A DNA stretch of 64,000 bases from Haloterrigena gelatinilytica. GTDB taxonomy: Archaea > Halobacteriota > Halobacteria > Halobacteriales > Natrialbaceae. Under the pieces are notes generated by a model, which saw nothing but the letters and a program-made list of their open reading frames with translations, made no database searches and was not told the DNA's origin. A program made the position numbers and the translations under genes. Below are positions 1 to 5,536 of the stretch, piece after piece. Each line of letters starts with the position of its first letter. The stretch's first letter is position 1. The DNA is taken from NCBI RefSeq assembly GCF_013342145.1, contig NZ_JABUQZ010000001.1:1612001-1676000 (forward strand). The letters run 5' to 3'.

Positions 1-691
1 CGTTGACGCGGTCGTCGCCGGAGAGCACGTCGCCGATCTCGCTGGCCTCGCCGGGGACGAAGTTGAAGGCGCCGTCCGGAATCCCGTCGACCTCGCTGAT
101 GACGTCGGCGAGGATCGCCGCCGAGATGGGCGTCTTGCTGGCGGGCTTGAGCAGGACGCTGTTACCGGCGGCGAGTGCAGGGGCTACCTGTAATGCCGTG
201 GTCGCCAACGGATAGTTGTACGGCGTGATACACAGCACCGCGCCGATCGGCTCGTGTTTGACGATCGCCTGCCAGCCCTCGTGGCCCTCGGTCGAGCCCT
301 CGCGGTACTCGCCCTGGCTGACGACGTTGCGAGCCTCCTCGGCCGCGCGGTCGAATCGCTCGGCGGCCTGCCCGACCTCGCCGCGGGCCGAGGAGATCGG
401 TTTCCCGGCCTCGCGGACGATGACCTCCGCGAGTTCCTCCTCGCGCTCGCGCAGCCCCTCGGCGATCGCTTCGCACCACTTCGCGCGCTCGACGACGGTC
501 GTCTCGCGCATGTGCGGCTTGATCTCGTGGGCTGCCTCGAGGGCGGCGTGGGCCGCAGCCGGATCCGCAGCGGTCACCTGCGCGAAGGTGCCTCCGTCGG
601 CGAGATCCGAGACCGGGATCGCGTTCTCGGTCTCGAGCCACTCACCGTCGACGTACAGTCGCTCTCTCCGCTGTGCGGCTCTCGTTGCCAT
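1..691 (-). CDS. Aldehyde dehydrogenase family protein (N-terminal part; C-terminus outside window)
   Basis: About 230 N-terminal residues of an NAD(P)-dependent aldehyde dehydrogenase. The translation begins MATRTAAQRRERLYVDGEW, followed by the typical N-terminal helices. It contains the cofactor-region motif CITPYNYPL near residue 160 and LLKPASKTP near 185, both characteristic of the family. The catalytic Cys and Glu lie beyond base 1, so the substrate cannot be judged. The start is the ATG at 691-689; the divergent intergenic region up to dpsA holds its promoter. I see no frameshift in the visible part. Confidence 0.9.
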   Translation of the reverse strand, partial: MATRAAQRRERLYVDGEWLETENAIPVSDLADGGTFAQVTAADPAAAHAALEAAHEIKPHMRETTVVERAKWCEAIAEGLREREEELAEVIVREAGKPISSARGEVGQAAERFDRAAEEARNVVSQGEYREGSTEGHEGWQAIVKHEPIGAVLCITPYNYPLATTALQVAPALAAGNSVLLKPASKTPISAAILADVISEVDGIPDGAFNFVPGEASEIGDVLSGDDRVN

Positions 692-784
692 ACCCGTCTC
701 TTAGAGCCCCACACTGAAAGAGTTTACTCACGCTTGAAAAAATAACGCAAGTATTGATGACCTCGTTCGGTGACGGGTCGATTG

Positions 785-798
785 TTAGGTAGACCAAA
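785..798. promoter_or_regulatory. Imperfect copy of the TTAGG-N4-CCTAA palindrome upstream of dpsA
   Basis: TTAGGTAGACCAAA matches 12 of 14 positions of the perfect palindrome at 2369-2382. As at that site, it is followed by an AAATCTA string. It lies about 100 nt before the dpsA ATG, in the aldehyde dehydrogenase/dpsA divergent region. An iron- or manganese-dependent DtxR-type repressor site is an inference from the TTAGG/CCTAA half sites and from the iron role of DpsA. Confidence 0.4.
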
Positions 799-859
799 AT
801 CTAGAGCGTCCATTGAGAACTGTGGTTTCCGATTACAGAAAAAATGTTCTCGCATGGGA

Positions 860-871
860 AATCTTTAAGTG
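860..871 (+). promoter_or_regulatory. dpsA core promoter (TATA-like box)
   Basis: The sequence AATCTTTAAGTG contains the haloarchaeal TTTAAG-type TATA element. It is centred about 30 nt before the ATG at 897, which predicts a nearly leaderless dpsA transcript. Confidence 0.65.
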
Positions 872-896
872 GAACGCGCGCGTTTGTTCGAATACA

Positions 897-1442
897 ATGA
901 GCACCCAAGAGACCGTCCGCCAGTCGGCTGACAGCGTCGAGGGGAACGAACTTCGCCTCGAGCAGGAGAAAGCCGAGCAGATCGTCGACGCGCTGAACAC
1001 GGAGCTCGCGAACTCGTACGTCCTCTACCACCAGCTCAAGAAGCACCACTGGGTCGTCGAGGGCGCCGAGTTCCTCCCGCTTCACGAGTTCCTCGAAGAG
1101 GCCTACGAGCACGTCGAGGAGGGCGCCGACGAGATCGCCGAGCGCGCCCAGGCGCTGGGCGGCGTTCCCGTCTCGGGCCCGACAAACCTCGAGGACCGCG
1201 CGACCGTCGAGTTCGAGGGTGAGGACGTCTACGACGTCCGCACCATGTTCGAGAACGACCTCGAGATGTACGGCGACATCATCGAGTCGATGCGCGGCAG
1301 CATCGAACTCGCCGAGAACCTCGGCGATCCCGCCACGGGCGAGATCCTCCGCGAGATCCTCGTCCACCTCGAGGAAGACGGCCACCACTTCGAGCACTAC
1401 CTCGAGGACGATACGCTGGTCCTCGAAGAAGCGACGAAGTAA
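897..1442 (+). CDS. dpsA: DNA-protecting ferritin-like protein DpsA
   Basis: A 181-residue Dps-type mini-ferritin that stores iron and protects DNA from peroxide-driven damage as a dodecamer. It begins MSTQETVRQSAD. The N-terminal helix carries NTELANSYVLYHQLKKHHW, where the conserved His pair and the downstream LPLHEFLEE acidic residues form the intersubunit ferroxidase centre typical of Dps. The start at 897 is chosen over an in-frame ATG at 813 because the TATA box at 860-871 sits about 30 nt upstream and known haloarchaeal DpsA proteins begin this way. The gene stands alone. A possible metal-repressor half palindrome lies at 785-798. Confidence 0.95.
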   Translation: MSTQETVRQSADSVEGNELRLEQEKAEQIVDALNTELANSYVLYHQLKKHHWVVEGAEFLPLHEFLEEAYEHVEEGADEIAERAQALGGVPVSGPTNLEDRATVEFEGEDVYDVRTMFENDLEMYGDIIESMRGSIELAENLGDPATGEILREILVHLEEDGHHFEHYLEDDTLVLEEATK

Positions 1443-1489
1443 TCGGACGACGGAAACGCCGGGTACCGAACCGCGTCGCCGATCGATTC

Positions 1490-1500
1490 CGCGTTTTTAC
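1490..1500 (+). terminator. Possible T-rich terminator after dpsA
   Basis: GCGTTTTTAC about 50 nt after the dpsA stop. A short T run after GC-rich sequence is the usual archaeal termination signal. There is no other support. Confidence 0.3.
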
Positions 1501-1794
1501 TGCTGCATCGAGAGACCAGCGAATAGCCCGTTTCGCACTCGAGGGTGGATACCGATACCCGGAGTGTCGCATCTTTCCGCGTGTTATTTCGAACCGCAAA
1601 ACCGGCAGACGGTGGCGCGCGCTGTGTCGCGGAACGGTGTAAGACCGACGGCGGGAGGCCTCGGTACTGCGAACGGGAAGAAAAGCGACCCGTGGGCTCA
1701 GTGAGCCGTGGTCCGAAGTCGCGCGAGGTCGTCACGAGAAGGTGAGTGACGGCTCGGAAGACACGACGTAGTAGTCCGCTACTTCCGCTGGCAG

Positions 1795-1978
1795 CGAGGA
1801 ATTCCACGGCCTCCCCAACCGATTCGTTCACTCGCGTCGCTCACGGTTCCCAGCGGTCACCGTTCGCTTTTCGAGGGGTTCACTGTGTTCACCCCTCGCA
1901 CCGCTCGTTCGCTCATCCCTCGCGCATGGTCGTCGGTCAGCCTCGCGTTGCTCGGCTGACCGACAGCGCGCGCCACCG
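1795..1978 (+). repeat. Dispersed repeat, copy A (longer)
   Basis: This segment shares blocks with the reverse complement of 56250-56374. The shared blocks are CCTCCCCAACCGATT, then runs of TTCACTCGC/TTCGCTC type, then CCCTCGC, then GACAGCGCGCGCCACCG at the right edge (1962-1978). Copy A carries about 60 extra bases in the middle. A 16-bp copy of the right edge occurs in inverted orientation at 1610-1625. No open frame is associated with it, so it looks like a non-autonomous intergenic repeat. Confidence 0.7.
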
Positions 1979-2191
1979 AAGGCCGGGCTGTCGACTGTCG
2001 CTCTCGAGCCCGCTTGCAAGGGGGTCCCCAGAGGTGGCAACTCTGCAACGTCTAGTGGCGTCAAAACCGAAGAGAGAGGATCCATGGCCGAGGTCAGTCG
2101 GCGTGACGGTTCGGTCCGTCGGGTCAGCGACGGACGAGCGGTGCGCTCGAGTCGGTGGTCGTGGGATCGCGGTCGGAGCCCGTCCCGACGG

Positions 2192-2359
2192 TCAGCGCTC
2201 GAGGTCGACGGTGAGGTCGGTCGCGATCCAGCCGTCGTTGTTGTTGCGCTCGGTGAAGACCGTCTTGCCGGGGCGCGTCTCGTGGCTGGTCACGACCACT
2301 GCCGGCTCCTCGGGTTCCTCGTCGGCATCGGAATCCTGCCTGCGGGCGGGTACGTCCAT
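2192..2359 (-). CDS. Small acidic haloarchaeal protein (55 aa), metal-operator controlled
   Basis: A 55-codon gene read from the ATG at 2359. It encodes an acidic N-terminal half followed by KTVFTERNNNDGW and the ending TDLTVDLER. That ending resembles a family of very short haloarchaeal proteins with a conserved N-D-x-W-I-A core (DUF7331-like from memory, unverified). Function is unknown. The main support for a real gene is its promoter: a TTTTTAGATT TATA-like element at 2383-2393 sits about 27 nt before the start. A perfect 14-bp palindrome (2369-2382) lies between TATA and ATG. A larger open frame on the other strand is its shadow. Confidence 0.75.
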   Translation of the reverse strand: MDVPARRQDSDADEEPEEPAVVVTSHETRPGKTVFTERNNNDGWIATDLTVDLER

Positions 2360-2368
2360 CACGTGGAG

Positions 2369-2382
2369 TTAGGTATACCTAA
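2369..2382. promoter_or_regulatory. Perfect palindromic operator TTAGGTATACCTAA
   Basis: A fully symmetric 14-bp palindrome located 10 nt before the ATG of the 55-residue gene and just downstream of its TATA box. A protein bound here would block transcription initiation. TTAGG/CCTAA half sites are characteristic of DtxR/IdeR-type iron-dependent repressors; assignment to that family is inference. Confidence 0.6.
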
Positions 2383-2480
2383 ATCTAAAAAGTTTTTGGT
2401 CGGCCTAAGTCTCTGGGAGTCGAACTGATCGCGCGGTTGGAGGCCGTAGTTTCACACTGTCGGACGCCGTACCCGCGCGT

Positions 2481-3077
2481 ATGGAGTTCGACGTCGTACA
2501 GGGCGACATCGCCGCACAGTCAGCCGACGCGCTCGTCAACGCCGCCGGGACGAGCCTCGAGATGGGTTCCGGCGTCGCCGGCGCGCTCCGACGCGGCGCG
2601 GGCGAGGAGATCAACGAAGAGGCCACGGCGAAGGGCCCCGTCGATCTCGGCGAGGTGGCCGTGACGGACGCGTACGATCTGGACGCCGACTACGTCATCC
2701 ACGCTGCGGCGATGCCTCACTACGGGGTTCACGAGACTCCGTCGGAGTCTCGTGAGCTAACCAGAACCGAAGGTTCTGGTGCTGACGGCCGGGCGACCGA
2801 AGAAAGCATCCGCGACGCAACCCGGAACGCGCTCGAGAAGGCCGACGACCTGCGCTGCCGATCGATCGCGCTCCCGGCGCTCGGCTGTGGCGTCGCGGGC
2901 TTCGACCTCGCCGAGGGCGCCGCGCTCATCGCCGAGGAGATCCGCGACTACGAGCCCGAGACCGTGGCGGAGGTTCGGTTCATCGCCTACGCCGACGAGG
3001 AGTACGAGACGATCCGCGCCGCGACCGCGACGGGCGACTCGCCGGCGCCGACCGACGGGAGCGAGTCCGATCGGTGA
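2481..3077 (+). CDS. Macro-domain protein (ADP-ribose/ADP-ribosyl binding or hydrolysis) with inserted palindromic segment
   Basis: A 198-residue macro domain. Motifs are VVQGDIAAQSADALVNAA (ADP-ribose adenine/phosphate loops, residues 5-22), a glycine-rich SGVAGALRRGAG loop (30-41) and the ALPALGCGVAGF phosphate loop near 137. Family members bind or remove ADP-ribose and related O-acetyl products. Residues about 83-104 (VHETPSES through GADG) do not fit the family. They are encoded by two adjacent DNA palindromes, apparently an in-frame insertion between the conserved HAAAMPHYG and the following ATEESIRDAT helix. Its effect on activity is unknown. Confidence 0.88.
   Translation: MEFDVVQGDIAAQSADALVNAAGTSLEMGSGVAGALRRGAGEEINEEATAKGPVDLGEVAVTDAYDLDADYVIHAAAMPHYGVHETPSESRELTRTEGSGADGRATEESIRDATRNALEKADDLRCRSIALPALGCGVAGFDLAEGAALIAEEIRDYEPETVAEVRFIAYADEEYETIRAATATGDSPAPTDGSESDR
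2729..2780. repeat. Double palindrome inserted in the macro-domain gene
   Basis: Two adjacent inverted repeats. The first has 13-bp arms at 2729-2741 and 2743-2755 around a single base. The second is ACCAGAACC/GGTTCTGGT at 2760-2768 and 2772-2780 around GAA. Both lie within codons that interrupt a conserved protein region, suggesting a small mobile or recombinogenic palindromic element. Confidence 0.75.
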
Positions 3078-3186
3078 CCGGAGTCGCGCCGGCGACGTCC
3101 GCTCGAACCGGATCTCGGTCCGTTCATCTTAAAGACGCCACCTGTGGTCGGGAAGGAATAACCCACCGGTGCTCGAAGCCGAGCGT

Positions 3187-3660
3187 ATGGGGCGGCACGT
3201 ACTGGTGGCGATGGGCCGAACCGACGCGTCGGACGCGGCGCTCGAGTACGCGTTCGAAGAGTATCCTGCGGCGAAAATCTCCGTGCTCCACGTCACCGAC
3301 GCGGCCGGTCCGTTCGCCCGGTTCGGCGGCCGGGATCCGTGCGAGTACGTGATTCCCGAACTGGCCGCCGAGCGGAGCGCGGAGCTGCTCCCGACGCCGG
3401 ACCGCTTTACGCGAGCCCAGTGCCGACGGGCCGAGCGGGTCCTCTCTCGCGCGCACGAACTCGCCGAGCGCCACGACCGGGAGATCGAACCGGCCGTCCG
3501 CTCGGGCGGCGCGGCGAGGGAGATCACCGACTACGCGGAGGAACACGCCGTCGACCACATCGTCATCGCGGACCACCCGCCGACGGCGTTCCGTCCGATC
3601 TTCCGATCGGTCCCCGAATCGGTCACCCGGAACGCCAGCGCGCCGGTCACGACGCTCTGA
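3187..3660 (+). CDS. Universal stress protein (UspA family)
   Basis: A 157-residue Usp-fold protein. The N-terminal strand HVLVAMGRTDASDAALEYA is the standard opening of the family. DHIVIADHPP near the C-terminus occupies the position where ATP-binding members have G-x2-G-x9-G-S. That glycine motif is weak or missing here, so this is probably a non-ATP-binding type. The ATG at 3187 is preferred over an in-frame ATG at 3169 because it aligns with the family's N-terminal strand. The gene stands alone between the macro-domain gene and convergent purM. Confidence 0.82.
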   Translation: MGRHVLVAMGRTDASDAALEYAFEEYPAAKISVLHVTDAAGPFARFGGRDPCEYVIPELAAERSAELLPTPDRFTRAQCRRAERVLSRAHELAERHDREIEPAVRSGGAAREITDYAEEHAVDHIVIADHPPTAFRPIFRSVPESVTRNASAPVTTL

Positions 3661-3720
3661 TCGCGCCGCGACGGTCGCTCCGTCGTCTCGAGAATTCGAG
3701 TCCGGAGCGGCGGGTCCCGA

Positions 3721-4713
3721 TCAGGACAGCGAGAGCCCGCGGACCTCGACCGAATCGCCCGCTTCGACGCGGCCGATGATCCGTCCGTCGGTGTCGGCTG
3801 CGAGGTCCTCGGCGCGGTCCTCGGGCAGCGCGACGACGAAGCCGGTGCCCATGTTGAACGTCCGGTGCATCTCCTCGTCGGTCACGTTGCCCTCCTCCTG
3901 CACGAACTCGAAGACCGCCTGCGCGGGGAACGGGTCGTCGACGACGTACTCGAACTCGCCCATCCGGAGCAGATTGGTCCAGCCCCCGCCCGTGACGTGG
4001 GCCGCCGCGCGCACGCCGTGTTCGCGCATCGGTTCGAGCAGGTCCGTGTAGATCCGGGTCGGCCGGAGCAGTTCCTCGCCGATCGTCCGCTCGGGGTTCG
4101 GCGGGAACTCGTCGGTGTAGTCGTGCTCGCGCGTGACCGCTTCCCGCGCGAGGGTGAGCCCGTTCGAGTGGATGCCGTTCGAGGCGAAGCCGACGAGGGC
4201 GTCGCCGACCTGCGCCTCGCCCTCGAGCACCTCGTCCTTGCCCGCGAGGCCGGCGCAGGTGCCCGCGAGGTCGAACCCCTTGATGACCTCGGGCATGACC
4301 GCCGTCTCGCCGCCGAGCATCGTCAGGTCGGCTTCCTCGAGCCCCACGGCGAGCCCCTCGCCGATCTGGTTGGTCAGCGCCTCGTCGGGCTCGTCGATCG
4401 CGAGGTAGTCGACGAAGGCGACGGGCTCGACGCCCGCGGCCACGAGGTCGTTGACGTTCATCGCGATGCAGTCGATCCCGATCGTCGAGAAGTCCTCGAT
4501 CGCTTCCGCCACCAGCAGTTTGGTCCCGACGCCGTCGGTCGCCAGCGCCAGATAGCGGTCGCCGATGTCGATCAGGCCGGCGTACTCGGTCCGCAGGTCG
4601 CTGCCGAAGGCCTCGAGCAAGGCCGCGGTCGCGTCCTCGCTGGCTTCGATGTCGACGCCGGTCTCCGCGTAGGTGAGCCGTTCCTCGCTCCCGTCGTCCG
4701 CTGAATCGGTCAT
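3721..4713 (-). CDS. purM: Phosphoribosylformylglycinamidine cyclo-ligase (AIR synthetase)
   Basis: A 330-residue PurM that catalyses ATP-dependent closure of FGAM to AIR, step 5 of purine synthesis. It begins with LTYAETGVDIEA, and the ATP/phosphate region includes ALATDGVGTKL. Further family signatures are MNVNDLVAAGVEPVAFVDY, LGGETAVMPEV, HVTGGGWTNLLRM and FNMGTGFVV. The ATG at 4713 is used; an upstream in-frame ATG at 4740 would add nine unconserved residues. No purine genes are adjacent. Confidence 0.96.
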   Translation of the reverse strand: MTDSADDGSEERLTYAETGVDIEASEDATAALLEAFGSDLRTEYAGLIDIGDRYLALATDGVGTKLLVAEAIEDFSTIGIDCIAMNVNDLVAAGVEPVAFVDYLAIDEPDEALTNQIGEGLAVGLEEADLTMLGGETAVMPEVIKGFDLAGTCAGLAGKDEVLEGEAQVGDALVGFASNGIHSNGLTLAREAVTREHDYTDEFPPNPERTIGEELLRPTRIYTDLLEPMREHGVRAAAHVTGGGWTNLLRMGEFEYVVDDPFPAQAVFEFVQEEGNVTDEEMHRTFNMGTGFVVALPEDRAEDLAADTDGRIIGRVEAGDSVEVRGLSLS

Positions 4714-4906
4714 GTCTGAACGACCTCCCGGGGCGAGCAAAAGGTCACCGGTCCGGGCGAGCGACCGCGAGTCCGCGCCTCCACGGCCACCGCCGAGTCG
4801 CGGGCGCCGTCGATCGTCGTTACATCCGATCCGGCGGCCGTACGACTCGAGACCGTCAAAACAGATGGAAACTCGACTCGGCGCCGGAACGGACCGCCGA
4901 CCGCCG

Positions 4907-5536
4907 TCAGAACGGGTTGGCGAACAGGACCACGTATCCCGCGAGCAGGGCGCTCGGGACGAACACGAGCGCGAACACGCCCTTGTGCCAGTCGTAGACC
5001 GATTTGCCGTCCAGCGGACCGAAGGGGATCATGTTGAACGCGGCCAGCACGAGGTTGATCCAGACGCCCATCTGGCCGATGGTCCCGAGCGGGGCCGGCA
5101 TGAGCACCAGCGGCAGGAACATGATCGCGAGCAGGTGGTTGGTGACGGGTCCGGCGAGGGCGATCATCGCGTTCTCCCGCTGGGTGATCCGGCCGCGGTG
5201 GTAGACGGCGCCGGGTGCGGCGAAGAGGAAGCCGACGAGCGCGCCCATGAGCGCCAGAAACAGCATCTGGTAGTCCGCTCGGAACTCGGCGATCTGGCCG
5301 TGTTCGATCGCGACGACCTTGTGTGCGAGCTCGTGTAACAGGAAGGCGACGCCGACGGTGACGAGACTGAGTCCGACCATCCCGAGGAAGTAACCGACGT
5401 CGGCGCCGGCGTGAACCGGCGCGAATATCAGCGAGAACGCGACCGACAGCGTCAGCCACGCGACGGCGAGGTCGATCAGCTCCCGGTCGCTGAAGGTCAG
5501 CTCCGGCTCCGAACGCGACCGCGCGCGGACGCTCAT
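4907..5536 (-). CDS. M50-type membrane zinc metalloprotease
   Basis: A 209-residue polytopic membrane protein of the site-2 protease/SpoIVFB (M50) type. The zinc-binding motif HELAH lies near residue 70 within a hydrophobic helix. A second motif, NMIPFGPLDG, supplies the conserved Asp of N-x2-P-x4-L-D-G. The family cleaves substrates within or near the membrane; the substrate here is unknown. Its ATG overlaps the stop of the upstream TraB-family gene by 4 nt (ATGA), so the two are probably co-translated. The same reading frame runs open far upstream, but only the part from 5536 is conserved. Confidence 0.9.
   Translation of the reverse strand: MSVRARSRSEPELTFSDRELIDLAVAWLTLSVAFSLIFAPVHAGADVGYFLGMVGLSLVTVGVAFLLHELAHKVVAIEHGQIAEFRADYQMLFLALMGALVGFLFAAPGAVYHRGRITQRENAMIALAGPVTNHLLAIMFLPLVLMPAPLGTIGQMGVWINLVLAAFNMIPFGPLDGKSVYDWHKGVFALVFVPSALLAGYVVLFANPF

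Follow-up and report, generated by a model that had tools for sequence, protein, structure and literature searches.

What does a perfect palindrome do between the TATA element and the start codon of a gene of only 55 codons? The question arises in a window of 64,000 nucleotides from Haloterrigena gelatinilytica, the whole stretch of DNA analysed here. The small gene lies on the minus strand, with its ATG at 2359, its 55 codons running to 2195 and its stop codon to 2192. Its protein is unstudied, and we propose that it may help the cell handle stored iron when iron is short. In much of the class Halobacteria the small protein is encoded beside dpsA, from a promoter that carries a predicted iron-repressor operator. 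Judging from the sequences compared, this conserved pairing of the operator-bearing small gene with dpsA is the larger finding.

Table 1. Features of the small-gene locus, in window coordinates
Feature	Position	Strand	Remarks
Distal-type element TTAGGTAGACCAAAA	785..799	+	Upstream of dpsA; exact pattern search; absent from the initial annotation
dpsA, Dps-like ferritin, convergent neighbour	897..1442	+	NCBIfam DpsA equivalog, 289 bits; solved relative 1moj, E 3.6e-65
Gene for 55-aa acidic protein, DUF7331-like	2192..2359	-	Stop included; matched in 125/125 family genomes
Proximal operator (predicted) TTAGGTATACCTAA	2369..2382	.	-23 to -10 of the small gene; exact in 124/125 family genomes
TATA-like element CTTTTTAGAT	2383..2392	-	Direct read; predicted promoter of the small gene
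Distal degenerate operator-like element TTAGGCCGACCAAAA	2394..2408	-	Exact pattern search; merged with the presumed BRE
Macro-domain gene, divergent neighbour	2481..3077	+	PF01661; linked in 27/30 family loci, 1/30 outside

The palindrome and its promoter

An initial annotation of this DNA had placed a perfect 14-bp palindrome between the TATA element and the start codon of a 55-codon gene, and a direct read of the sequence agrees. The 14 bases at 2369-2382 are TTAGGTATACCTAA, perfectly palindromic and an exact match to the core TTAGG-N4-CCTAA. The TATA-like region is T/A-rich, and its distance is constant across 118 aligned upstream regions. The spacing from TATA to ATG fits a leaderless haloarchaeal transcript. 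With TATA at 2392-2383 and the palindrome at -23 to -10, the palindrome thus occupies the gap between TATA and a probably leaderless start. An Rfam scan of window positions 1-5000 found no family, and a scan for bacterial promoters and terminators, whose models are ill-suited to archaea, found nothing.

Palindromy alone is unremarkable in this window: uniform bases would give 3.9 perfect 14-bp palindromes, and 12 are present. The feature that rises above chance is the sequence class, TTAGGNNNNCCTAA. The initial annotation had seen the style of DtxR/IdeR repressors in the TTAGG/CCTAA halves, and the pattern is indeed the 14-bp, one-dimer IdeR/DtxR consensus that a 2021 structural study proposes (PMC8464063). 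In exact searches TTAGGTATACCTAA itself occurs once in the window and once in the 4.55-Mb genome. For the class TTAGGNNNNCCTAA the genome has 15 sites; the reversed control has 2, and the dinucleotides of the window predict about 0.15. Across 125 genomes of the family Natrialbaceae (set f1, assigned to the family by inference from named loci) there are 1524 sites and 200 control matches, and the count per genome lies above the control in 121, equals it in 2 and falls below it in 2. Allowing one mismatch leaves no excess in the genome itself (27 sites against 44 for the control), so we rely only on exact sites.

Across the TATA element from the palindrome sits a second element, TTAGGCCGACCAAAA, which the initial annotation did not contain. 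An element of this kind is found at -49 or -48 in 102 of the 125 family genomes, mostly as TTAGGNNNACCAAAA and with 1 or 2 mismatches to the palindrome. Exact operator pairs number 193 in the 125 genomes; among the 75 listed, 67 are spaced by 34-36 bp and 5 by 26-28 bp. The small gene, with its 26-bp spacing and degenerate distal site, is a minority form, so we draw no conclusion on cooperation between two sites. At two further loci (L022, 6010-6059, and L024, 5529-5578) exact operators lie 36 bp apart with a TATA/BRE-like core in between.

Exact sites across the genome and candidate regulators

The initial annotation had also suggested scanning the genome for enrichment of the motif near metal genes, and that scan gave the 15 sites against 2 described above. 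Their flanking genes show that ten of the 15 precede a DtxR-family gene or genes that transport or make Fe-siderophores. The lack of enrichment near metal genes that would have spoken against the reading was not observed. Seven stand before Fe-siderophore transport genes (six for Peripla_BP_2 proteins, one for a FecCD permease) and two before a siderophore-type aminotransferase/decarboxylase operon, which we infer to match dat-bdb, a gene pair in the siderophore cluster of H. volcanii (PMC7407949 for the gene names). One lies 147 bases before a DtxR-family gene, the site-bearing gene at genome C1:2735724. The remaining five are at the small gene, at a wHTH gene, at a DUF7090 gene and, as a pair, between DUF7551 and PHP genes; all five precede genes with no evident iron role, which counts against the regulon reading. 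The operators viewed before DUF7090 (L023, 4998-5045) and DUF7551/DUF7552 genes (L024) stand at genes with no known iron role. The proposal that the small gene is a member of an iron regulon finds support at the level of sequence in the ten iron-linked sites and in its own palindrome, which is exact in 124 of 125 family genomes.

Twelve sites of the genome have one mismatch. Three fall in 23S rRNA genes and were set aside, three are partners of exact sites (including 2395-2408 in the window), two precede dps (785-798 in the window and genome position 137621) and four were left unassigned. The distal-type site of the window dpsA is far upstream of the dps TATA. Among 29 dps promoters, in which some genomes were entered twice owing to two dps copies, a distal-type site within 200 bp of dps is exact in 10 and has one mismatch in 6 more. 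At genome C1:135862-137568 (L025) three consecutive dps-like genes stand behind a single distal-type site, TTAGGCTCCCCAAAA.

The identified first genes at the 15 exact sites include no manganese or zinc transporter, so the metal of the operator is likely iron. Several genes for siderophore-binding proteins in this genome also have their site between TATA and start. It is unlikely, in our judgement, that the site answers to another metal, such as manganese, or that the small gene is activated through it. Distal-type elements similar to that at -49 do occur upstream of dps, where activation by iron is expected, and some lineages retain the distal type alone at the small gene. The proximal element, however, is the best conserved, it is positioned as it is before siderophore-uptake genes, and the first genes at the sites include no manganese or zinc transporter.

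Six proteins of the genome pass the PF01325 cut-off. Three are clear members of the DtxR family at 56-76 bits, one of them with Fe_dep_repr_C and FeoA domains and another with Fe_dep_repr_C. The other three match at only about 26 bits, appear Lrp-like by eye and were not counted. The gene at C1:2735724 probably does not encode the general regulator of the operator, since relatives with at least 51% identity occur in just 10 of the 31 genomes searched and the other two types are widespread. This motif-bearing DtxR-family gene lies tail to tail with another dps copy (genome C1:2735577-2736698, L020), and similar pairs exist in several relatives.

From the class of the sites and the genes behind them, we think it likely that the palindrome serves as operator for an iron-dependent haloarchaeal repressor of the DtxR family (Idr/SirR/TroR-type) that silences the small gene.

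A conserved small gene beside dpsA

The 55-aa protein contains 7 Asp, 7 Glu, 5 Arg and 1 Lys, and no Cys. Its match to Pfam DUF7331 (PF24018), at 25.4 bits (E 2e-5), does not reach the cut-off of 27; the two are alike in length and C-terminal pattern, and we call the protein DUF7331-like only, a weak assignment. DUF7331 is present in all 391 class genomes searched, and no mention of it was found in the literature searched. Unlike the small gene, the best-scoring paralogue in this genome (90.4 bits) lacks an operator of this kind within 130 bases upstream. Second DUF7331-like copies are found in four other genomes (L203-L207), and the exact operator is upstream in all five stretches viewed. Over all pairs of 10 sequences, a small sample, pN is 0.071 and pS 0.255, which indicates purifying selection. 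AlphaFold2 on 49 orthologues gave a poor model (pLDDT 63.7, pTM 0.33) with a hairpin at residues 23-37, and a profile search of solved structures returned nothing useful (best E 0.7). The plasmid searches gave one partial match each.

The gene and its operator are both strongly conserved. With the 55-aa protein as query, a match was found in every one of the 125 family genomes, its own included; the closest named genome is that of Haloterrigena salina, with 98% protein identity. The palindrome is exact upstream of 124 of the 125 best matches and has one mismatch in the other. It starts between -28 and -20, at -23 in 118 genomes, although start codons were chosen by script and individual positions may be off. 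Those 118 regions were chosen for the palindrome, which fixes its ten outer bases, and the four-base spacer takes 26 forms among them. Outside the family, an alignment of 49 orthologues was used to query 49 selected genomes, all of different genera, drawn from ten families. The small gene was matched in 43, and four of the six without a match belong to one family, f2. An exact upstream site is present in 36 of the 43 (27/30 and 9/13), among them G242, where the start is uncertain and the site lies at -71. Of the other seven, five carry only a site that is distal-type or one mismatch away, and two carry no site at all; G142, in the latter group, resembles a paralogue.

The divergent macro-domain gene shares the intergenic region with the small gene, and the operator could in principle serve that gene. 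We consider this very improbable as the main role of the site. The distance from the operator to the small-gene ATG is fixed (118 of 125 at -23), whereas the distance to the macro-domain gene varies, and the macro-domain gene is found in only one of 30 outside loci, most of which still have the operator. Within the macro-domain gene, at 2730-2779, lie two adjacent short inverted repeats, one at 2730-2754 and the other at 2761-2779, which may represent a small insertion; the repeat at 2730-2754 is unique in the window.

In the window dpsA and the small gene are arranged tail to tail, and this arrangement recurs in 56 of the 70 family genomes examined (of 125) and in 32 of 43 outside. Among the 30 best-scoring family loci, an opposite-strand dps lies within 1.5 kb downstream in 28, and one of the two misses is a contig end. 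In 40 more divergent family genomes, dps within 2 kb is convergent in 28 and divergent in one, and the flank holds no dps in 11. Outside the family, dps flanks the small gene in 33 of 43 genomes. A first set of 30 gives 24, of which one has dps on the same strand and the other 23 are convergent; the remaining 13 give 9, without exception convergent. The flank holds no dps in 10 of the 43. Since the macro-domain neighbour is kept in just one of 30 outside loci, the linkage to dps exceeds general conservation of gene order.

How far this linkage speaks for a direct partnership can be argued both ways. There is a real possibility, somewhat short of an even chance, that the operator and iron control are as we propose but the small protein spares iron in a more general way, for instance as a small regulator of translation, transcription or an enzyme, and does not touch DpsA directly; the linkage would then merely group two iron genes. 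Some genomes, for example G117, G177 and G139, keep the exact operator without dps in the flank, and the operator also stands on paralogues, at each of the five further loci viewed. The persistence of the convergent dpsA link over ten families in which the macro-domain neighbour is lost weighs on the other side. The tail-to-tail layout and the mostly short gaps would also suit an excludon, in which convergent transcripts overlap, the starvation-induced RNA of the small gene is antisense to dpsA and the peptide is secondary. This seems improbable to us, as purifying selection acts on the protein, which is conserved across the class, the gap is widely variable, and dps lies on the same strand in one genome and is divergent in another.

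Neither the small gene nor its pairing with dpsA was found in the literature searched, which did not extend to the main haloarchaeal regulon papers (Leyn and Rodionov 2015; Schmid 2011; Martinez-Pastor 2017, 2024); the gene may already figure in their tables.

A proposed iron switch and known systems

We return to the reading in which a DtxR-family repressor silences the small gene. When iron is plentiful, a metal-loaded dimer between TATA and the transcription start would block recruitment of polymerase, and a second dimer would probably lie over the BRE-side element. As iron falls, the dimer would come off and a leaderless mRNA for the 55-aa acidic protein would be made. The same type of site would control the siderophore uptake and synthesis genes, and the upstream sites would probably favour dpsA. 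This iron-favoured dpsA is proposed from the distal sites upstream of dps and from C. glutamicum, where DtxR represses uptake genes and activates dps and ftn from upstream sites (PMC1382209). Iron loading of the regulator would then repress one of the tail-to-tail genes and favour the other, as the placement of the operators suggests, with the small gene expressed when iron is scarce and dpsA when it is plentiful.

The role of the protein is a more tentative matter. By analogy with Bfd and bacterioferritin, it may work on DpsA or together with it when iron is scarce, promoting the release of iron or preventing further storage; we rate this as somewhat less likely than not. The same doubt attaches to the fuller version, in which a cluster-free starvation protein would bind DpsA and either release iron or shut off its uptake, possibly by opening or capping the DpsA cage, and one DtxR-family switch would drive the two genes in opposite directions. 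If true, this would be the first functional lead to DUF7331.

The nearest parallel for such a partner is bacterioferritin-associated ferredoxin. Bfd is required to mobilise the iron of BfrB (PMC7760384), and bfd adjoins bfr in many genomes, with expression that differs (PMC7762939). Here too a small-protein gene lies beside an iron-storage gene, dpsA, and operator placement suggests that the two are differently controlled. Bfd, however, is a [2Fe-2S] ferredoxin with cysteines, and its partner is a bacterioferritin; the partner here would be a Dps, in a putative interaction. The small protein has no cysteine in this genome, none in 80 of 125 family orthologues and never more than two. We therefore rejected it as a Bfd: with too few cysteines for a ferredoxin, it would have to act otherwise.

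The regulatory side is closer to what is known. The actinobacterial regulons of C. glutamicum DtxR and of IdeR have in common with this locus the 14-bp half operator TTAGGNNNNCCTAA (PMC8464063). Their operator is a 19-bp double site, whereas here an archaeal TATA/BRE promoter carries single 14-bp sites or separate pairs. Within the haloarchaea, DtxR-family regulators of the Idr, SirR and TroR types act in iron homeostasis in Halobacterium and Haloferax (PMC11349517, PMC11218638). This genome, too, has DtxR-family genes, three of them clear.

MDR1 of Archaeoglobus fulgidus has its operators downstream of TATA. This metal-dependent regulator is cited as excluding polymerase from the promoter (PMC2995911). 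The proximal site of the small gene lies at a point from which a bound dimer might hold polymerase off the TBP/TFB complex.
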